29,617 nucleotides of DNA from a virus, in the IMG/VR virus record IMGVR_UViG_3300032240_000837, positions 1 to 29,617 of that record. One strand, written 5' to 3'. The number at the start of each line of letters is the position of its first letter. Positions within the stretch are counted from its first letter, which is position 1. A program made the translations under genes and the position numbers. Of the stretch, positions 1,911-26,198 are shown one piece after another. A model generated the notes under the pieces. That model saw nothing but the letters and a program-made list of their open reading frames with translations. It was not told the origin of the DNA and ran no database searches.

Positions 1911-2477
1911 ATGACATGGTTATTACAACCACAGACTAAAAACTCTCTTTGGTCCTGGCGAGCAGGAATGTTCACAGATGAGCAATTGGATCAAATTATA
2001 GAGCTGGGCAAAAGTCTAACAGTAGAGTCAGGGCGAGCAATCGGCAATGATTCTATTAGAGAAAGCAATATTGCCTGGTTACAGTCAAATAACGACACAG
2101 CATGGATTTACCAAACACTGTCGTGGAACGTACAAACAATAAACAACGACAAGTTTGGTTTTGATCTAACTCATATAGAGCCATTACAATTTACAGTCTA
2201 TGACAGCCAAGTGCAAGGGTTTTATGGACAGCACATTGATTTGGGTACTGATGAGGGCGGCTTCCGTAAACTATCTTTTGTACTACAGTTATCAGACCCA
2301 GTAGACTACAATGGCGGAGAACTAAAGTTGTATTATTCTAGAGACGCAACAATAATGCCTAAGGAAAGAGGCAAGCTGATGTTCTTTCCAAGTTGGGCAT
2401 TACATGAAGTTACACCAGTGACCAAAGGCACACGCTACAGCCTTGTGGGATGGGTAGCAGGACCAAAATTTAAATGA
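1911..2477 (+). CDS. 2OG-Fe(II) oxygenase (prolyl hydroxylase-like)
   Basis: A 188-aa single-domain dioxygenase. The iron-binding triad is visible: His108 and Asp110 in GQHIDLG, and His165 in SWALHEV. Arg175 in TRYSLVGW would bind the 2-oxoglutarate carboxylate. The spacing and the GGEL segment between them match the prolyl 4-hydroxylase-like group common in marine T4-like phages, which hydroxylate protein or small-molecule substrates at the cost of 2-oxoglutarate and O2. The substrate cannot be read from the sequence. A GTAAATA box ends 3 nt before the ATG, too close to serve this start as a late promoter. The gene overlaps the radical SAM gene by 4 nt (ATGA), so the two are likely co-translated. 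Confidence 0.85.
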   Translation: MTWLLQPQTKNSLWSWRAGMFTDEQLDQIIELGKSLTVESGRAIGNDSIRESNIAWLQSNNDTAWIYQTLSWNVQTINNDKFGFDLTHIEPLQFTVYDSQVQGFYGQHIDLGTDEGGFRKLSFVLQLSDPVDYNGGELKLYYSRDATIMPKERGKLMFFPSWALHEVTPVTKGTRYSLVGWVAGPKFK

Positions 2478-3919
2478 AAAAAGATCTAGTAATTGTAACA
2501 GCACCGTGGTCGGATACAGAGATGCCACTCATGGCACCGGCTATATTAAAGACTATGGCCACGGCCGCAGGAGTATCCAGTACAGTATACGAACTTAATG
2601 CAGAGATTGGCAACATAGTTAGAACACATCCGCACAAAAATGATCTAATAGAATTTTTCTTCACTGGTTATATAAGACCCAATAATATTGAAACAATAAT
2701 TTTTGAAATGATGGAAAATGCGGCACGTCGTATATTAGAACACAGCGATAAGATTGTTGCTATCAGTGTATTTTCTTACTCGTCGCAGGTATCTACCAAG
2801 TGGCTCTGTTATCTAATTAAAAAACTCAGCCCACATACTCGCATAGTTTTGGGTGGATCGGGTATACTGGACAATCTAACAGGACATGGTAGATACGCAG
2901 AAGATCTACTAGCACGTGGATTAATAGAACACTACATTCGTGGGGATGGAGAAAATGCGTTCTACAATTTCCTTAAAGGTAAAACCGATTACATTGGCAT
3001 TGACAGCGACTTATGGCAAGAACTTTCAAATCAAGAATTAAATCAATTACCAATTCCTGACTACGACGATTACGATTGGGCATTGTACAATGCAAAAGCT
3101 CTACCAATACTGGGCAGTCGCGGATGTGTACGACAATGTACGTTCTGTGATGTACATGCACACTGGAATAAATTTACCTGGCGCACAGGAGAAAACATAT
3201 TCCGCGAAATGATAGAACTCAGTGAAAAACATAAAGTTTATCATTTTAAATTTCAAGATAGTTTAATTAACGGTAACATGAAAGAGTATCGAATATTAAC
3301 CAAGTTATTGGCGGATCATAACGAAACAGCTAAGAATAAGTTGACCTGGAGTAGTTTTTTTATTTTTAGAGACAAGAATAGTTTTAAAGAAGATGAGTGG
3401 GAACTAACTGCAAAAAGCGGAGCCACTACACTATTAGTTGGCGTAGAAAGTCTAAGTGATAGCGTGAGAGAGCACATGGGAAAGAAATTTACCAATGTTG
3501 ATTTAGAGTTTGCATTAGACCAATGCGCTAGACTAGGAGTCGGTGTTGGTATGTTAATGATTGTTGGCTATGTGACAGAGACTGAAGAAGATGTTAAATT
3601 TGCAGAACAATGGTACAGAGAACATAAACATTATGCTGGTAATCCTATTAAATTTATCAACATGGGAGGCACATTGGGAATCTTAAAGAACACACCATTG
3701 GAAAAGAATTTTATCAAATTGAATTTAGTAAAGTCCGGCGAACACGATCACGATTGGGTTAACCCAGCAATCAACAGCACACCACAGCGTAGGGGACAAT
3801 GGAATATGCACTTACGTCAGGTCATCAAAGAGTGTGGGTTTGAAGAGTGGCTAAGTGCCGGTGACAATTATTTGATTATGGAACAACTAATTAAACAGGA
3901 CAGCCATGTTAGCGTTTAA
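2474..3919 (+). CDS. Radical SAM protein with B12-binding-like N-terminus (module A)
   Basis: A 481-aa protein with the radical SAM cluster motif CxxxCxxC at Cys218, Cys222 and Cys225 (GCVRQCTFC), which holds a [4Fe-4S] cluster that cleaves S-adenosylmethionine. The first about 170 residues resemble the cobalamin-binding Rossmann domain of class B radical SAM enzymes (VLGGSGI, YIRGDGE), but I do not see the DxHxxG His ligand. Later family segments include DSLING and LLVGVESLSDSVREHM. Enzymes of this architecture often methylate or rearrange unactivated carbons in lipids, glycans or antibiotics. The gene overlaps the oxygenase upstream and the next gene downstream. It is a paralogue of the gene at 16277 with cysteines at nearly identical positions, and both are followed by the same kind of partner. 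Confidence 0.88.
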   Translation: MKKDLVIVTAPWSDTEMPLMAPAILKTMATAAGVSSTVYELNAEIGNIVRTHPHKNDLIEFFFTGYIRPNNIETIIFEMMENAARRILEHSDKIVAISVFSYSSQVSTKWLCYLIKKLSPHTRIVLGGSGILDNLTGHGRYAEDLLARGLIEHYIRGDGENAFYNFLKGKTDYIGIDSDLWQELSNQELNQLPIPDYDDYDWALYNAKALPILGSRGCVRQCTFCDVHAHWNKFTWRTGENIFREMIELSEKHKVYHFKFQDSLINGNMKEYRILTKLLADHNETAKNKLTWSSFFIFRDKNSFKEDEWELTAKSGATTLLVGVESLSDSVREHMGKKFTNVDLEFALDQCARLGVGVGMLMIVGYVTETEEDVKFAEQWYREHKHYAGNPIKFINMGGTLGILKNTPLEKNFIKLNLVKSGEHDHDWVNPAINSTPQRRGQWNMHLRQVIKECGFEEWLSAGDNYLIMEQLIKQDSHVSV

Positions 3920-16276: not shown

Positions 16277-17866
16277 ATGGATATTGTATTAGCTATTGTA
16301 CCGCGTATTGTTGACGACTTTGGATATACGCCTGCAGGTCCTGCTTTGCTTAAAGGTTCATTGAGTGCGGCTGGCTACTCTAGTAAGATTATAGATTTCA
16401 ATGCTGACCTAGAAAACAAGTATCAGCATGATCAGGATAGTTTAATTGCCCTGAGCAATTACTTTATGAACTACAACTTGTACAATGCCGAAACATTTGA
16501 ACTGGTTGATCAGCTGATAACAGAATGGGCCTGGACAATACTTGAACACCGACCAACCTGGGTTGGTATAAGTGTGTTCAGTTACAACAGCCAACGTGCT
16601 ACACGTTTGTTGGCAATACGTTTGAAGTCGATTGATCCTGGTGTGAAGATTGTAGTGGGTGGTGCTGGTATTGTAACTGACTACACCTTTAGCGAAACAC
16701 TATACCAGGATCGCATTATTGATGCGTACATTCGTGGCGAAGGCGAACGCAGTCTAATTGAACTGCTAAAAGGCAACACACTATATCCGGGAATAAACGG
16801 ATTGCCTTTTGTGCAGATAGATGATGTAGATAACCTAGCATACCCTGAGTACGACGACTACGAGTTATCTACTTATACCAACAAAAAAGGACTAGTGGCA
16901 TTGCCTATCACTGGCAGTCGCGGCTGTGTTAGAGCCTGTACCTTTTGCGATATTGCTAGTCAGTGGCCCAAGTTTAGGTTTAGGTCTGGAAAAAGTATTG
17001 CTGACGAAATACGCCATCAAGTTGAAACACACGGAGTAACAGCATTCCGTTTTACAGACAGTCTAATTAATGGTAGCCTTAAAGCATTCAAGCAAATGGT
17101 AACAGAGCTGGCTGAGTATAGACTGGGCTTGCCCAAAGAACGTAGGTTTATTTGGGACAGCCACTTTATTCTGCGCGGCCCTCGTGAAATGAAACCCGAA
17201 CTGTTTGACATCATGCGAGATAGCGGAGCCGGCACAATGTTGATTGGAGTTGAAAGCGGTAGCCAAAGTGTGCGAGACCATATGAAAAAAGGTTTCTCAC
17301 AAGCAGACTTAGACTACTGTATGGAACAGTTTAGTCGTACTGGCATCAAGACACGCTTCTTGATGATTGTGGGTTATCCAACAGAAACCGAGCAGGATTT
17401 TCAAGACACTATTGATCTGTTTACCAAGTACAAACCTTATCAGGCCGATGGCACAATTGAAGAAGTCAATCTTGGACTGACACTAAACCTACTACCCCAC
17501 ACACCACTCAGTGATGATCTAGAAGAATACAATATTGTACAAGACAATAATCATATCAATGATTGGGTATGCACAGATAATCCAACACTGACCTATCGAG
17601 AACGCTTACGTAGACGTATCTACTTACAACAGCACATTGAACAGCTGGGTTATCGTGTGTTTGAAGCCAAAAACTACACAAAACAGTTGTTTATGGCTTG
17701 GTCAGAAGTAGCTTCCAAGCCAACACGGGTCACAACAGTAGACAACTATGTATACGACCGAGAACGCGGTGGCCTAATGATACAACACAGCATTCCTGCA
17801 ATGCCACAGACTAAAAAGATTACAATATTAAAAAATGCAGATAAAAGTAAAATTACGAGCACATAA
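16277..17866 (+). CDS. Radical SAM protein with B12-binding-like N-terminus (module B)
   Basis: A 529-aa paralogue of the gene at 2474. The cluster motif CxxxCxxC is at Cys217, Cys221 and Cys224 (GCVRACTFC), one residue from the module A positions. The cobalamin-domain-like N-terminus has IVVGGAGI and YIRGEGE. Shared later blocks are DSLING and LIGVESGSQSVRDHM. Compared with module A it has an extra C-terminal segment of about 45 residues ending in a basic stretch (ILKNADKSKITST). It should generate a 5'-deoxyadenosyl radical to modify an unreactive carbon. The partner gene starts 32 nt before this stop. Same-family paralogues about 12 kb apart in one phage suggest two different substrates or two steps. 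Confidence 0.88.
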   Translation: MDIVLAIVPRIVDDFGYTPAGPALLKGSLSAAGYSSKIIDFNADLENKYQHDQDSLIALSNYFMNYNLYNAETFELVDQLITEWAWTILEHRPTWVGISVFSYNSQRATRLLAIRLKSIDPGVKIVVGGAGIVTDYTFSETLYQDRIIDAYIRGEGERSLIELLKGNTLYPGINGLPFVQIDDVDNLAYPEYDDYELSTYTNKKGLVALPITGSRGCVRACTFCDIASQWPKFRFRSGKSIADEIRHQVETHGVTAFRFTDSLINGSLKAFKQMVTELAEYRLGLPKERRFIWDSHFILRGPREMKPELFDIMRDSGAGTMLIGVESGSQSVRDHMKKGFSQADLDYCMEQFSRTGIKTRFLMIVGYPTETEQDFQDTIDLFTKYKPYQADGTIEEVNLGLTLNLLPHTPLSDDLEEYNIVQDNNHINDWVCTDNPTLTYRERLRRRIYLQQHIEQLGYRVFEAKNYTKQLFMAWSEVASKPTRVTTVDNYVYDRERGGLMIQHSIPAMPQTKKITILKNADKSKITST

Positions 17867-18458
17867 GAGTACTCGGGCTCCTGCGGTACGGTTGGCAATA
17901 AACGGCAACAGCGTGTACTATGCTGACAGCTTTGATGACGAAGTAACCGAAATAGAATTTGGGTTTACTCCAGACGAAAAAAACGTATTTGAGATTGAGC
18001 ACTACAACAAAACAAATACGGATACCATTTGCGACAGTGCAGGTAATATTGTTGCTGACCGTGCTGTTGAACTGTTGTCGTTGTCCATAGATGGGTATGT
18101 TGTTCCCAAGAACATCTTGTTTAAGAAACCGTTCTACGTAAAATGGCCTAACAACTTGATTGAAGATGCCAAACGTGAAGGTCGTACACTACCTGAGTAC
18201 CTAGACAACAACTTGTTCTTTGGTTTCAATGGTAGCTATCAATTTGATTTCCCTCAAGACTTTGCCCGAGAGTACTACTGGTACCATTGGCAAATGGAAC
18301 GAGATGCCAACAGCAATTTACAAATGGTAGATGAGTCTACACAAACTGCATACTTTGATGCTTACGGTCTAAGGCTTGCAATCAATCAAGATTTCAGTTA
18401 TACTATACATGATTTAAAATACATTATTGACAATGAAACCCTGCCGACTAATAATTAA
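17835..18458 (+). CDS. Beta-rich partner of the radical SAM protein (module B)
   Basis: A 207-aa protein that shares the signature of the protein at 3906: DSAGNIVADR (67-76) and FFGFNG (128-133). The first about 95 residues are beta-rich and could form a sandwich domain (VRLAINGNSVYYADSF, EIEFGFTPDEKN). The additional C-terminal half, absent from module A's partner, is rich in Tyr, Trp and Phe (REYYWYHWQMER). Carbohydrate-binding domains often look like this, so glycan binding is a reasonable inference. It overlaps the radical SAM gene by 32 nt and the uvsW gene by 26 nt, both strong signs of translational coupling. No active-site motif is visible. Confidence 0.72.
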   Translation: MQIKVKLRAHKSTRAPAVRLAINGNSVYYADSFDDEVTEIEFGFTPDEKNVFEIEHYNKTNTDTICDSAGNIVADRAVELLSLSIDGYVVPKNILFKKPFYVKWPNNLIEDAKREGRTLPEYLDNNLFFGFNGSYQFDFPQDFAREYYWYHWQMERDANSNLQMVDESTQTAYFDAYGLRLAINQDFSYTIHDLKYIIDNETLPTNN

Positions 18459-19890
18459 AGACGAAGTAAACGTCAAATGCGAAGGTTTGGATTTGGCCAC
18501 TAGGAAAAAACTAGTAGACAAGTTCAAATTTGAAATTCCTGGTGCTAGATATCAGCCCAGTGTTCGGCTTGGACGATGGGATGGCAAAGTCAGCTACTTC
18601 CAGCTTGGCGGTAGCAGTTATATCAACCTACTACCTGATATCCTGCCCATCATTGAAAGCGACGGATACGATATTGAATTAGAGGACATGCGGGACTACT
18701 CTATTCAATTTGAGTTTGCAGAAATCACAGAAGATACGTTTGCCAACAAAACTTGGCCCAAGGGTCATCCCAAGGCAGGCGAGCCAATCAAACTGCGCGA
18801 CTATCAACCTCAGATACTTAACAACTTTTTGCAGAACAGGCAAAGTGTGCAAGAAGTGGCCACAGGCGCTGGTAAGACCATTATGACTGCGGCCTTGAGT
18901 CTTAGCGTCGAGAAGTATGGTCGATCAATAGTTATTGTACCAAACAAAAGTCTAGTTACACAAACAGAAGAAGACTATGTTAATCTGGGACTAGATGTTG
19001 GCGTATACTTTGGCGACCGTAAAGAATTTGGCAAAACACACACTATATGTACATGGCAAAGTCTGAACATACTGTTAAAAAGCACACAAGATGGATCTGC
19101 AGACTGCACCATTGGTGAGTTCATTGAGGATGTTGTCTGCGTTATTGTAGACGAAGTACACATGGCCAAAGCAGACGCACTCAAAACTCTACTAACAGGC
19201 ATATTTTCTCATGTGCCAATTCGGTGGGGACTAACAGGAACTATTCCCAAAGAGGAGTATGCCGCAGTCAGTATCTTCTGTAGCCTTGGGCCAGTAGTAG
19301 GAAAACTAACTGCCAGTGAGTTACAGGAAGCAGGACATCTTGCTAATTGTCACGTTAACATTGTGCAGTTGGCCGACAGTGCAGAATACACCAACTATCA
19401 AAGTGAACTAAAGTACCTGACAGAAACAGCAGGTCGACTGGACTACATCAGTAATCTGGTCAAGAGTGTAAACGAAACTGGTAACACCCTGGTCCTGGTT
19501 GATAGGATATCAACTGGCAAACTATTAATTGAGCGCCTGGACAATGCAGTATTTGTTTCGGGTGCAACCAAAGCAAAGGACAGAAAAGATGAATACGACG
19601 AAGTGGCGACTGCTACTGGCAAGATTATTGTGGCGACTTACGGTGTGGCCGCTGTTGGTATTAATATCCCAAGGATTTTTAATCTGGTTCTTATTGAGCC
19701 CGGAAAGAGCTTTGTCAGGGTTATACAAAGTATTGGGCGAGGCATTAGAAAAGCAGAGGACAAGGACTTTGTTCAGATCTGGGACATCACTTCGACGTGC
19801 AAGTTTGCGAAGCGACACCTCACTAAGCGTAAGGCCTTCTACAAGGAAGCCAATTATCCGTTCACTGTTGAGAAAGCAGAATGGCAGTAA
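18433..19890 (+). CDS. uvsW: UvsW-type DNA/RNA helicase
   Basis: A superfamily 2 helicase of 485 aa, the size of T4 UvsW. The N-terminal substrate-recognition domain opens with LIIKDEVNVKCEGLDLATRK and contains GRWDGKVSYF. Motif I is ATGAGKT (catalytic Lys148), motif II is DEVH at residues 240-243, motif III is GLTGT, and motif VI is QSIGRGIRK (from Gln432). UvsW unwinds R-loops and branched DNA, migrates Holliday junctions and helps switch T4 from origin- to recombination-dependent replication. A TTG at 18427 could be the start but the ATG at 18433 is preferred. The gene overlaps its neighbours on both sides. It is the clearest T4-like marker in the window. Confidence 0.93.
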   Translation: MKPCRLIIKDEVNVKCEGLDLATRKKLVDKFKFEIPGARYQPSVRLGRWDGKVSYFQLGGSSYINLLPDILPIIESDGYDIELEDMRDYSIQFEFAEITEDTFANKTWPKGHPKAGEPIKLRDYQPQILNNFLQNRQSVQEVATGAGKTIMTAALSLSVEKYGRSIVIVPNKSLVTQTEEDYVNLGLDVGVYFGDRKEFGKTHTICTWQSLNILLKSTQDGSADCTIGEFIEDVVCVIVDEVHMAKADALKTLLTGIFSHVPIRWGLTGTIPKEEYAAVSIFCSLGPVVGKLTASELQEAGHLANCHVNIVQLADSAEYTNYQSELKYLTETAGRLDYISNLVKSVNETGNTLVLVDRISTGKLLIERLDNAVFVSGATKAKDRKDEYDEVATATGKIIVATYGVAAVGINIPRIFNLVLIEPGKSFVRVIQSIGRGIRKAEDKDFVQIWDITSTCKFAKRHLTKRKAFYKEANYPFTVEKAEWQ

Positions 19891-24320: not shown

Positions 24321-25243
24321 AAACACTAATTGTAGGAAGTGGTGGAGCATCAACTGCAAATTACTATAAAAATTTATCAGCTGGAGAGAGTACGTTAGTT
24401 GATTCAGTTGATTGCAATTTTGTTGTTGGGCATACCAGTCCTGTGGATTTGTCCAAATTGGACCTACAACATGTTATGAACAGTGTGGATATAATTTATT
24501 GGGCACATAGTCCTATAGAAGAGTTCAATACTGCCAGCGACTATTACGAGTTCCTTGATTGGCTTAAAGATTTCAACTTACAACATAATAAAATTGCTAA
24601 TCTAAATGTATATCTGGATCCGTTTAATTGGCAATACAACACCAAACTTGACACATATGATATTGTATTTTTAGGATGTAGTTTTACTGCTGGCGAAGGA
24701 TTGTCGGATCCAACCACACACTACTCGTCATTGGTTGCGGACCATTTTGGACTTAATTTAGTTAATCTAGCTGAAAATGGTGCCAGCAATAGTTTGTCAT
24801 TTGACAAATTCACACAACTTGACTTTTGCCCTGGGCAGGTAGTAGTATTACAGTTAACAGGATTAGAAAGACTACAGTATTGCAAGGAAGATCGACAACT
24901 TACCAAAATAATGTTTGCTATGCCAAAGTTTAAAAATTTGGCCAAGAATTTCTTAGAAGTTTATAATCGAGACTTTTTGTTTTACGAGAACCTGTGTAGG
25001 ATACGTGCAATCGTAACTATTGCAAGATTAAAAAAAATTAAATTGATATTTTGGACAGTGAACCAAGTCTACACATCAGAACAACTGGCATATTTTTATA
25101 ATCTTAAAGAATTTGTTCCAGAAAGTTGGGTCTCCGGGTTCCAAGTTGATTTAGCAGAAGACAACATGCATCCCGGAATTGAATCAAACAAAAACATTGC
25201 AAACACATTAATAAGATATATAGAGACTGTTTATGAAATTTAA
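24317..25243 (+). CDS. SGNH/GDSL hydrolase-like protein with N-terminal extension
   Basis: The ATG at 24317 overlaps the preceding stop (ATGA) and gives 308 aa. Residues 1-110 form a Rossmann-like region (TLIVGSGGASTANYYK) of unknown role. From about 115 the SGNH domain starts: FLGCSFTAGEGL with nucleophile Ser122, LAENGASNS with the block III Asn, and DNMHPG with Asp282 and His285 as the DxxH pair of block V. All catalytic positions are therefore present. Such hydrolases remove acetyl or acyl groups from glycans, and phage versions are known to modify surface polysaccharides. Overlaps the mini-DnaE-like gene by 11 nt. Confidence 0.8.
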   Translation: MKTLIVGSGGASTANYYKNLSAGESTLVDSVDCNFVVGHTSPVDLSKLDLQHVMNSVDIIYWAHSPIEEFNTASDYYEFLDWLKDFNLQHNKIANLNVYLDPFNWQYNTKLDTYDIVFLGCSFTAGEGLSDPTTHYSSLVADHFGLNLVNLAENGASNSLSFDKFTQLDFCPGQVVVLQLTGLERLQYCKEDRQLTKIMFAMPKFKNLAKNFLEVYNRDFLFYENLCRIRAIVTIARLKKIKLIFWTVNQVYTSEQLAYFYNLKEFVPESWVSGFQVDLAEDNMHPGIESNKNIANTLIRYIETVYEI

Positions 25244-25814
25244 GTCGGACATTGACATTGACTTTGCAGATAGAAATCAAGCATTAAAATTGCTACAGCA
25301 TCATCCTGCAGGAATCATAAGAGATGGCAAATTAATTAAACACAATACTGGTGTTTATGTTACAGACATTCCGGTGGATCCATTTACTGGCATTGCCAGC
25401 CTAGATCATCATGCGGCAGAAGATCTTGGATATGTTAAACTGGACTTTTTGAATGTCAATGTCTACAGTTTAGTTAAAAGCCCAGCACATCTAGATCAGC
25501 TGATGTTGCAAGAGCCAAGTTGGGATCGGCTGTATGATAGAGAGTTCTGTGGGCAGTTAATTCAAGTTGGAAACCATTATGATACACTGATCAAGATGCC
25601 AGAAGCAGTTAATAGTATCCCTAGGATGGCAATGTTTTTGGCTGTGATACGTCCTGCAAAGAGACACCTAATAGGCAAAACCTGGGCAGAAGTTGCAGTA
25701 GATGTCTGGACTAGACCCGATGATGAAAGTTATAACTTTAAAAAGTCACACGCTGTGGCTTACGCACATTTGGTGGCTGTGCATATGAATTTACTCGGTG
25801 ACCTTGCGAACTAG
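25233..25814 (+). CDS. Miniature DnaE-like (DNA polymerase III alpha) palm protein, 193 aa
   Basis: This 193-aa protein holds, in the right order, the signature motifs of the C-family polymerase DnaE. DIDIDFADR (residues 6-14) matches the segment with catalytic Asp401 and Asp403 of E. coli DnaE. KHNTGVYV (36-43) matches the KHAGGVVI segment. YVKLDFL (67-73) matches the VKFDFLG segment with Lys553 and Asp555; here Lys69 and Asp71. MFLAVIRPAKRHLIG (134-148) matches ALFRPGP, with the two Gly replaced. NFKKSHAVAYA (168-178) matches FNKSHAAAYA. The PHP domain, the linking helices, the OB fold and the tau-binding domain are missing, so about five sixths of the 1,160-aa enzyme is gone. It may be a condensed polymerase, a primer-handling protein or an inhibitor. 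Activity is not demonstrated. It ends inside the convergent minus-strand gene (24-nt overlap). Confidence 0.8.
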   Translation: MKFKSDIDIDFADRNQALKLLQHHPAGIIRDGKLIKHNTGVYVTDIPVDPFTGIASLDHHAAEDLGYVKLDFLNVNVYSLVKSPAHLDQLMLQEPSWDRLYDREFCGQLIQVGNHYDTLIKMPEAVNSIPRMAMFLAVIRPAKRHLIGKTWAEVAVDVWTRPDDESYNFKKSHAVAYAHLVAVHMNLLGDLAN

Positions 25815-26198
25815 GGTAATACTTCTGCGTTTACTGCGCTTTTGTGCGATTTCTTTAAGGCTAACGTAGGGTCCAAACTTAATTTCTACGTCTTTGGTGT
25901 TTAAGGTTTTAACACAGAACCTAAACTCTCCCCAAGTATCTTTAAGAAACACGTTAATGGGTATAAGCCTATTGCTTTCCCACCACCATACTTCTCCTTG
26001 ATCAAGGAAACGTAATTTCTGTTCTTCTGTTTTTAGCAGGCTGTAGTCATATATTGTGGTAATGAAATTATCCACATTTTGTACGATTCCCACATAGTCA
26101 TTCCCACCGTATACCAAATAAGTCAGGTATGGGTATCGATCTAAAAGCTGTTTAATTTCTTCCACGTTGTCCGATAAATATGTTATAAAGACGAGCAA
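25791..26198 (-). CDS. Minus-strand phage protein of unknown function (135 aa)
   Basis: A 135-aa protein on the opposite strand. The first TTG codon (26198) gives MLVFITYLSDNVEEIKQLLD; no in-frame ATG follows, and a GTG about 11 codons in is the only other fair start. The sequence looks like a compact alpha/beta domain (LVYGGNDYVGIVQNVDNFIT) with VWWWESNRLIPINVFLKD and a basic C-terminus (RSKRRSITLVRKVTE). I recognise no family. The 3' end overlaps the mini-DnaE-like gene by 24 nt and the 5' end is 2 nt from the divergent baseplate-like gene, so promoters must lie inside neighbouring genes. Single minus-strand genes among plus-strand genes are often late acquisitions. Confidence 0.65.
   Translation of the reverse strand: MLVFITYLSDNVEEIKQLLDRYPYLTYLVYGGNDYVGIVQNVDNFITTIYDYSLLKTEEQKLRFLDQGEVWWWESNRLIPINVFLKDTWGEFRFCVKTLNTKDVEIKFGPYVSLKEIAQKRSKRRSITLVRKVTE
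26173..26180 (+). promoter_or_regulatory. T4-like late promoter motif GATAAATA
   Basis: GATAAATA ends 20 nt before the ATG at 26201. The predicted start of transcription, about 26186, leaves a 15-nt leader with a weak AAGACGAG. It lies within the minus-strand gene's 5' end and fits the structural genes that follow. Confidence 0.5.

Follow-up and report, generated by a model that had tools for sequence, protein, structure and literature searches.

A short DnaE-like protein of an environmental virus as the probable C-terminal chain of a split minimal DNA polymerase III alpha in T4-like jumbo phages

The locus and its neighbourhood

In the window, by which we mean the whole 29,617-nt stretch of viral DNA analysed here, we confirmed an open reading frame at 25233-25814 (+) that starts with ATG, encodes 193 aa and overlaps the upstream reading frame by 11 bases. 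Most of its close relatives begin at the same start (MKFKSDIDIDF...). PHROG_11778, annotated as 'DNA polymerase', matches the product over residues 2-189, i.e. its full length (E=1.6e-58), and from profile, fold and alignment we read the protein as one half of a split minimal DNA polymerase III alpha, putatively the C-terminal one that binds Mg2+ and DNA (hereafter the C-half). A single-sequence search of the PDB sequences gave no match, and Pfam and NCBIfam returned DnaE matches below threshold only, so that profiles were needed to recognise the protein; profile-profile comparison with DnaE gave 95.4% (E=1.7e-8).

The 3' end of the gene is overlapped by a convergent gene encoding 135 aa (25791-26198, -; PHROG_11637), a conserved neighbour that lies at most 400 nt from the C-half in 99 of 111 relatives; in 8 more the distance is slightly larger. 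A UvsW-like helicase, recognised by search match and synteny, is encoded upstream (18427-19890, +) and belongs to a replication and recombination neighbourhood that the window has in common with phage isolates, where the order is uvsX, uvsY, a DnaQ-like exonuclease, uvsW, small genes, the C-half, the convergent PHROG_11637 gene, a DNA primase and a DnaB-like helicase. Elsewhere in the window, two similar proteins (2474-3919 and 16277-17866, both +) have radical-SAM-like Cys motifs (GSRGCVRxCTFCD) when read by eye, and their genes stand among those for sugar-nucleotide proteins, glycosyltransferase-like proteins (also by eye) and an FkbM methyltransferase (a search match).

Relatives of the C-half are encoded in 556 candidate stretches of IMG/VR and in 63 phage isolate records, among them Atu_ph07, Phosso, the PA5oct group, SCTP-2, 121Q/PBECO4, RaK2, GAP32, CBB, Munch and the smaller Slicko01; with SCTP-2 as query, no environmental relatives were found. 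GTDB genomes contain the C-half too, on contigs assigned to bacterial metagenome-assembled genomes and to an archaeal one (L268-L274); these are probably phage contigs binned with their hosts. The window protein shares 34-74% identity with 48 other aligned members. Synonymous sites are otherwise near saturation, and the unsaturated pairs give a dN/dS of ~0.09, on which a pseudogene was rejected; on this sequence evidence 25233-25814 is a working gene under strong purifying selection. The preliminary description of this DNA had argued from the retained aspartates against simple decay, and the argument holds, with the aspartates kept in the relatives and the dN/dS as low as it is.

Predicted fold and catalytic residues

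An AlphaFold2 model of the window protein, built with 48 relatives, reached a pLDDT of 90.2. When the model was compared with known structures by VIA-align, the top 12 entries were all C-family polymerases (Z 5.8-8.8, 180-189 residues aligned), namely DnaE of E. coli, M. tuberculosis and Thermus and one PolC-sized polymerase, 9qrn, while the best unrelated entry had a Z of 3.4. Foldseek likewise ranked DnaE structures first, with weak E-values (0.015 at best). A structure prediction with no palm would have spoken against homology to DnaE, and what the prediction returned is the C-family palm and fingers.

Residues 1-193 of the model align to residues 397-780 of E. coli DnaE. Missing are the PHP domain, the thumb and everything past about residue 780 (HhH, clamp motif, OB and CTD), in agreement with the earlier proposal that the PHP, tau-binding and OB domains are absent. 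The place of the thumb is taken by 63 residues instead of 152, measured from D8 to D71 in the window protein and from D403 to D555 in E. coli DnaE, so the shortened spacing of the aspartates reported before is borne out as well.

The catalytic motifs stand in the order first described: D6-I-D8-I-D10-F, K36-H37-N-T-G40-V, V68-K69-L-D71-F-L, I139-R140-P141-A-K143 and F169-K170-K171-S-H173. We followed their conservation in 57 diverse relatives, whose identity to the window protein goes down to 31%. The palm Asp pair lies in the DIDIDF segment (25248-25265, +), where D6, D8 and D10, equivalent to D401, D403 and D405 of E. coli DnaE, are invariant in 57/57. In H37-N-T-G40 (25341-25352, +), corresponding to H511..G514, the His and Gly are invariant, and K69-L-D71 (25437-25445, +), corresponding to K553/D555 and including the third catalytic Asp, is kept in 56 of the 57. 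The I, R, P and K of the finger motif IRPAK (25647-25661, +; R140 equivalent to R639), and K170 and H173 of the FKKSH motif (25737-25751, +; H173 equivalent to H760), are again found in all 57. Thus D6, D8, D10, H37, G40, R140, K170 and H173 are all invariant, and the aspartates are not free to vary among the homologues (D6 and D8 in 57/57, D71 in 56/57). Against a reference of nine DnaE-type sequences, all nine of the DnaE-invariant residues that map into the C-half, by manual mapping, fall among its 20 invariant positions (2e-10 under random placement). In the same comparison, the DnaE-invariant finger residues G682, G699 and R709 had no counterpart in the C-half.

These data bear on the suggestion that the protein is a decoy that interferes with the Pol III replisome of the host. 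Its likeness to the host DnaE would suit such a role. In DnaE, the PHP domain contacts epsilon, and the C-terminal region contacts the clamp and tau. The parts known to bind these replisome proteins are thus the very ones that the C-half has lost, while the catalytic core is kept, its catalytic residues are invariant at a dN/dS of ~0.09, and it is co-inherited with a partner half described below. With the catalytic core retained and the replisome-binding parts gone, a decoy role is the least probable of the readings that we considered, and we give it hardly any weight.

The missing GRGS motif and the partner half

In C-family polymerases a GRGS motif shortly before the Asp pair is also required, and none of the nine DnaE-type sequences departs from its R362, G363 and S364. 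The G-R-G-S motif of the C-family active site is not in the window protein, an absence that the preliminary description overlooked. According to papers on CBB and Atu_ph07, both genomes encode a short 'Pol III alpha' at another place. These proteins, CBB_328 and Atu_ph07 gp316, carry ...GRGSxxSS... and end soon after, at ...YELDVNEFLKW and ...YDLDFSEFLE respectively; both are matched by Pfam PF07733 above its cut-off, and PHROG_11127 matches the CBB partner over its full length (E=1.7e-87). The partner is a protein of ~172 aa encoded by a separate, distant phage gene, which in CBB is near clamp loader and topoisomerase genes, and the GRGS motif is invariant among the partner proteins.

We modelled the partner of one window relative, 357 kb long; its predicted fold has a pLDDT of 88.2, and the matches listed for it are all C-family polymerases (Z 6.4-10.6, rmsd 2.3-3.2 A), the best having a Z of 10.6 and an rmsd of 2.5 A. 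Structural alignment places partner residues 75-174 on residues 278-393 of E. coli DnaE (Z 8.7-9.6), and profile-profile comparison with DnaE (96.7%, E=3.9e-10) gives the same end point. The pair therefore covers 278-393 (partner) and 397-780 (C-half) of E. coli DnaE without overlap. The partner residues 1-74 (L166:3001-3222), in place of the PHP domain, are barely covered by the structural matches.

The end point is common, within 3 residues, to all 108 partner ORFs found. No fusion of the partner to the C-half was seen among 110 partner-profile matches; two long ORFs among them that might have been fused halves proved to be pieces of full-type phage DnaE. As in the cyanobacterial split-intein DnaE, two separate genes encode the DnaE parts. 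Unlike the cyanobacterial case, the phage junction has no intein, and the C-half ORF starts at its own Met. A split intein was rejected on the grounds that the 108 partner ORFs stop 0-3 residues past the DnaE homology and that the C-half is without an N-terminal extension of intein length.

Divided and reduced DnaE genes of other kinds were also encountered. Other phage DnaE genes are broken into two ORFs at differing points (L133-L139), and one of these (L139) has an intein-like C-terminal end (HNFIAGNFIVHNC) ahead of the second DnaE part. A 167-kb relative of the window (G003) encodes, besides both split halves, a DnaE-like protein of 557 aa that is in one piece and has no PHP domain (L149:517-2190, -), and proteins like it are found in hundreds of other phages.

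Co-occurrence of the two halves

Hit lists compared by reading show the partner in 59 of the 60 listed isolate records with the C-half. The exception, PP728206, has the C-half without the partner and is a record of 109 kb from a phage whose relatives are ~346 kb. The four longest environmental contigs with the C-half (127-357 kb) all have the partner, and none of 12 shorter ones does. When the search was made from the partner side, the C-half was on 11 of 18 contigs, including 10 of the 12 of at least 240 kb. Two contigs of more than 280 kb have the partner and are without the C-half as judged by the PHROG profile; since the usual neighbour gene of the C-half is absent as well, a missing stretch of genome is the likely explanation. 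The window record extends over 29,617 bases only, and its own partner gene and family B polymerase would lie beyond it.

It had been proposed that the protein could be a minimal C-family nucleotidyltransferase, and the C-family assignment and the kept aspartates agree with this. The part that is not supported is that it would act alone. That the C-half is one compact chain, predicted with confidence and bearing the Asp triad, could suggest a standalone enzyme with no partner, yet the GS motif, invariant in the compared DnaEs and in the partner, is absent from the C-half, the C-half begins exactly at the stop point of the partner, and the separate partner co-occurs with it in nearly every listed isolate record. 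We therefore regard a standalone enzyme as very improbable.

Discussion

Because the GRGS motif is absent from the window protein and is supplied by a co-occurring partner that ends where the C-half begins, the window protein probably forms the C-terminal part of a minimal DNA polymerase III alpha that T4-like jumbo phages make as two chains. The interpretation draws together the fold, the conserved residues, a partner covering the adjoining part of DnaE, the common split point and the co-occurrence. A two-chain Pol III alpha core that is both thumbless and PHP-less is the best reading of these findings, and the standalone enzyme and the decoy are set aside. The wide separation of the two genes, the weak Foldseek E-values and the two large contigs with the partner alone count against it. 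The pair is like the bacterial DnaE, or Pol III alpha, of E. coli, M. tuberculosis and Thermus in its palm and finger motifs and in a predicted fold that corresponds to E. coli residues 278-780; it differs in being two chains with no PHP, thumb, HhH, clamp motif, OB or CTD, and with shortened fingers.

A mechanism can be envisioned in which the two chains assemble into one catalytic core, where the partner would bring its GRGS motif to the triphosphate and primer side and the C-half its Asp triad with two Mg2+, together forming a single nucleotidyltransferase site of the pol-beta type, and the fingers remnant of the C-half would contact the template and the nucleotide. With the thumb, PHP domain, clamp motif and C-terminal domains all gone, it can further be proposed that the pair would perform short, low-processivity synthesis, such as gap filling, repair or the finishing of one strand. 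It would presumably act beside the family B replicase, the primase, the helicase and the recombination proteins of the phage. A family B polymerase was present in all 15 long genomes tested, relatives and isolates together. In Slicko01 (OQ508956 3529-5033) and Atu_ph07 (NC_042013 212336-213688) the family B polymerase is in two open frames, and a split PolB with an intein has been published for MIJ3 (PMC6892783).

The chemistry of the pair is the less certain part of the argument. Besides the missing G682, G699 and R709, residues R390 and R396 of E. coli DnaE, near the split point, have no counterpart, which makes it uncertain that the pair polymerises. The loss of the thumb and of the three finger residues also leaves room for a complex in which the halves assemble and serve as some other nucleotidyltransferase, for terminal addition or for protein or nucleotide modification, or as a structural or regulatory subunit of the replisome; the presence of a full family B replicase in the genome would fit such a role too. 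Against it, the metal-binding Asp, the Lys, the RPxK and KSH motifs and the GRGS of the partner are all near-invariant, and both half genes are placed among replication genes. We hold this alternative to be unlikely, if clearly less so than the two set aside above. For the stronger form of the two-chain polymerase, in which the halves form a heterodimer of ~365 residues without thumb or PHP domain that works beside a family B replicase in jumbo phages and is the smallest active C-family polymerase known, we consider the case evenly balanced.

For group 2.2 jumbo phages, Iyer et al. 2021 (PMC7824862) had already predicted a minimal DNA Pol III alpha that is phage-specific and split; their text describes two separate distant genes for an NTP-binding N-terminal unit and a Mg2+/DNA-binding C-terminal unit, with a family B polymerase alongside. 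Set against that description, the system described here is alike in every point tested, and full-length matches to PHROG_11778 (C-half) and PHROG_11127 (partner) revealed no difference from those families. The window protein is an environmental addition to the split Pol III alpha predicted in 2021. The earlier statement that no characterised protein like this is known must be narrowed accordingly: the split enzyme had been predicted from genomes in that paper (PMC7824862), while our literature search, including papers after 2021, found no biochemical or experimental study of the split Pol III alpha. The split point, the structures and the co-occurrence are worked out here in more detail than in the main text of Iyer et al. 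2021 (PMC7824862).

If the two-chain polymerase is real, a core conserved in two pieces and lacking thumb, PHP domain and clamp parts would show the true minimum for C-family catalysis. Bacterial replicases are large multidomain chains, and the ~365-residue pair may be a natural two-chain version of their core and possibly a relic of that core's origin, so that the idea that minimal cores predate the cellular enzyme would become testable. The split enzyme is also widespread, being found on hundreds of environmental viral contigs and in several phage genera that grow on laboratory-tractable hosts.
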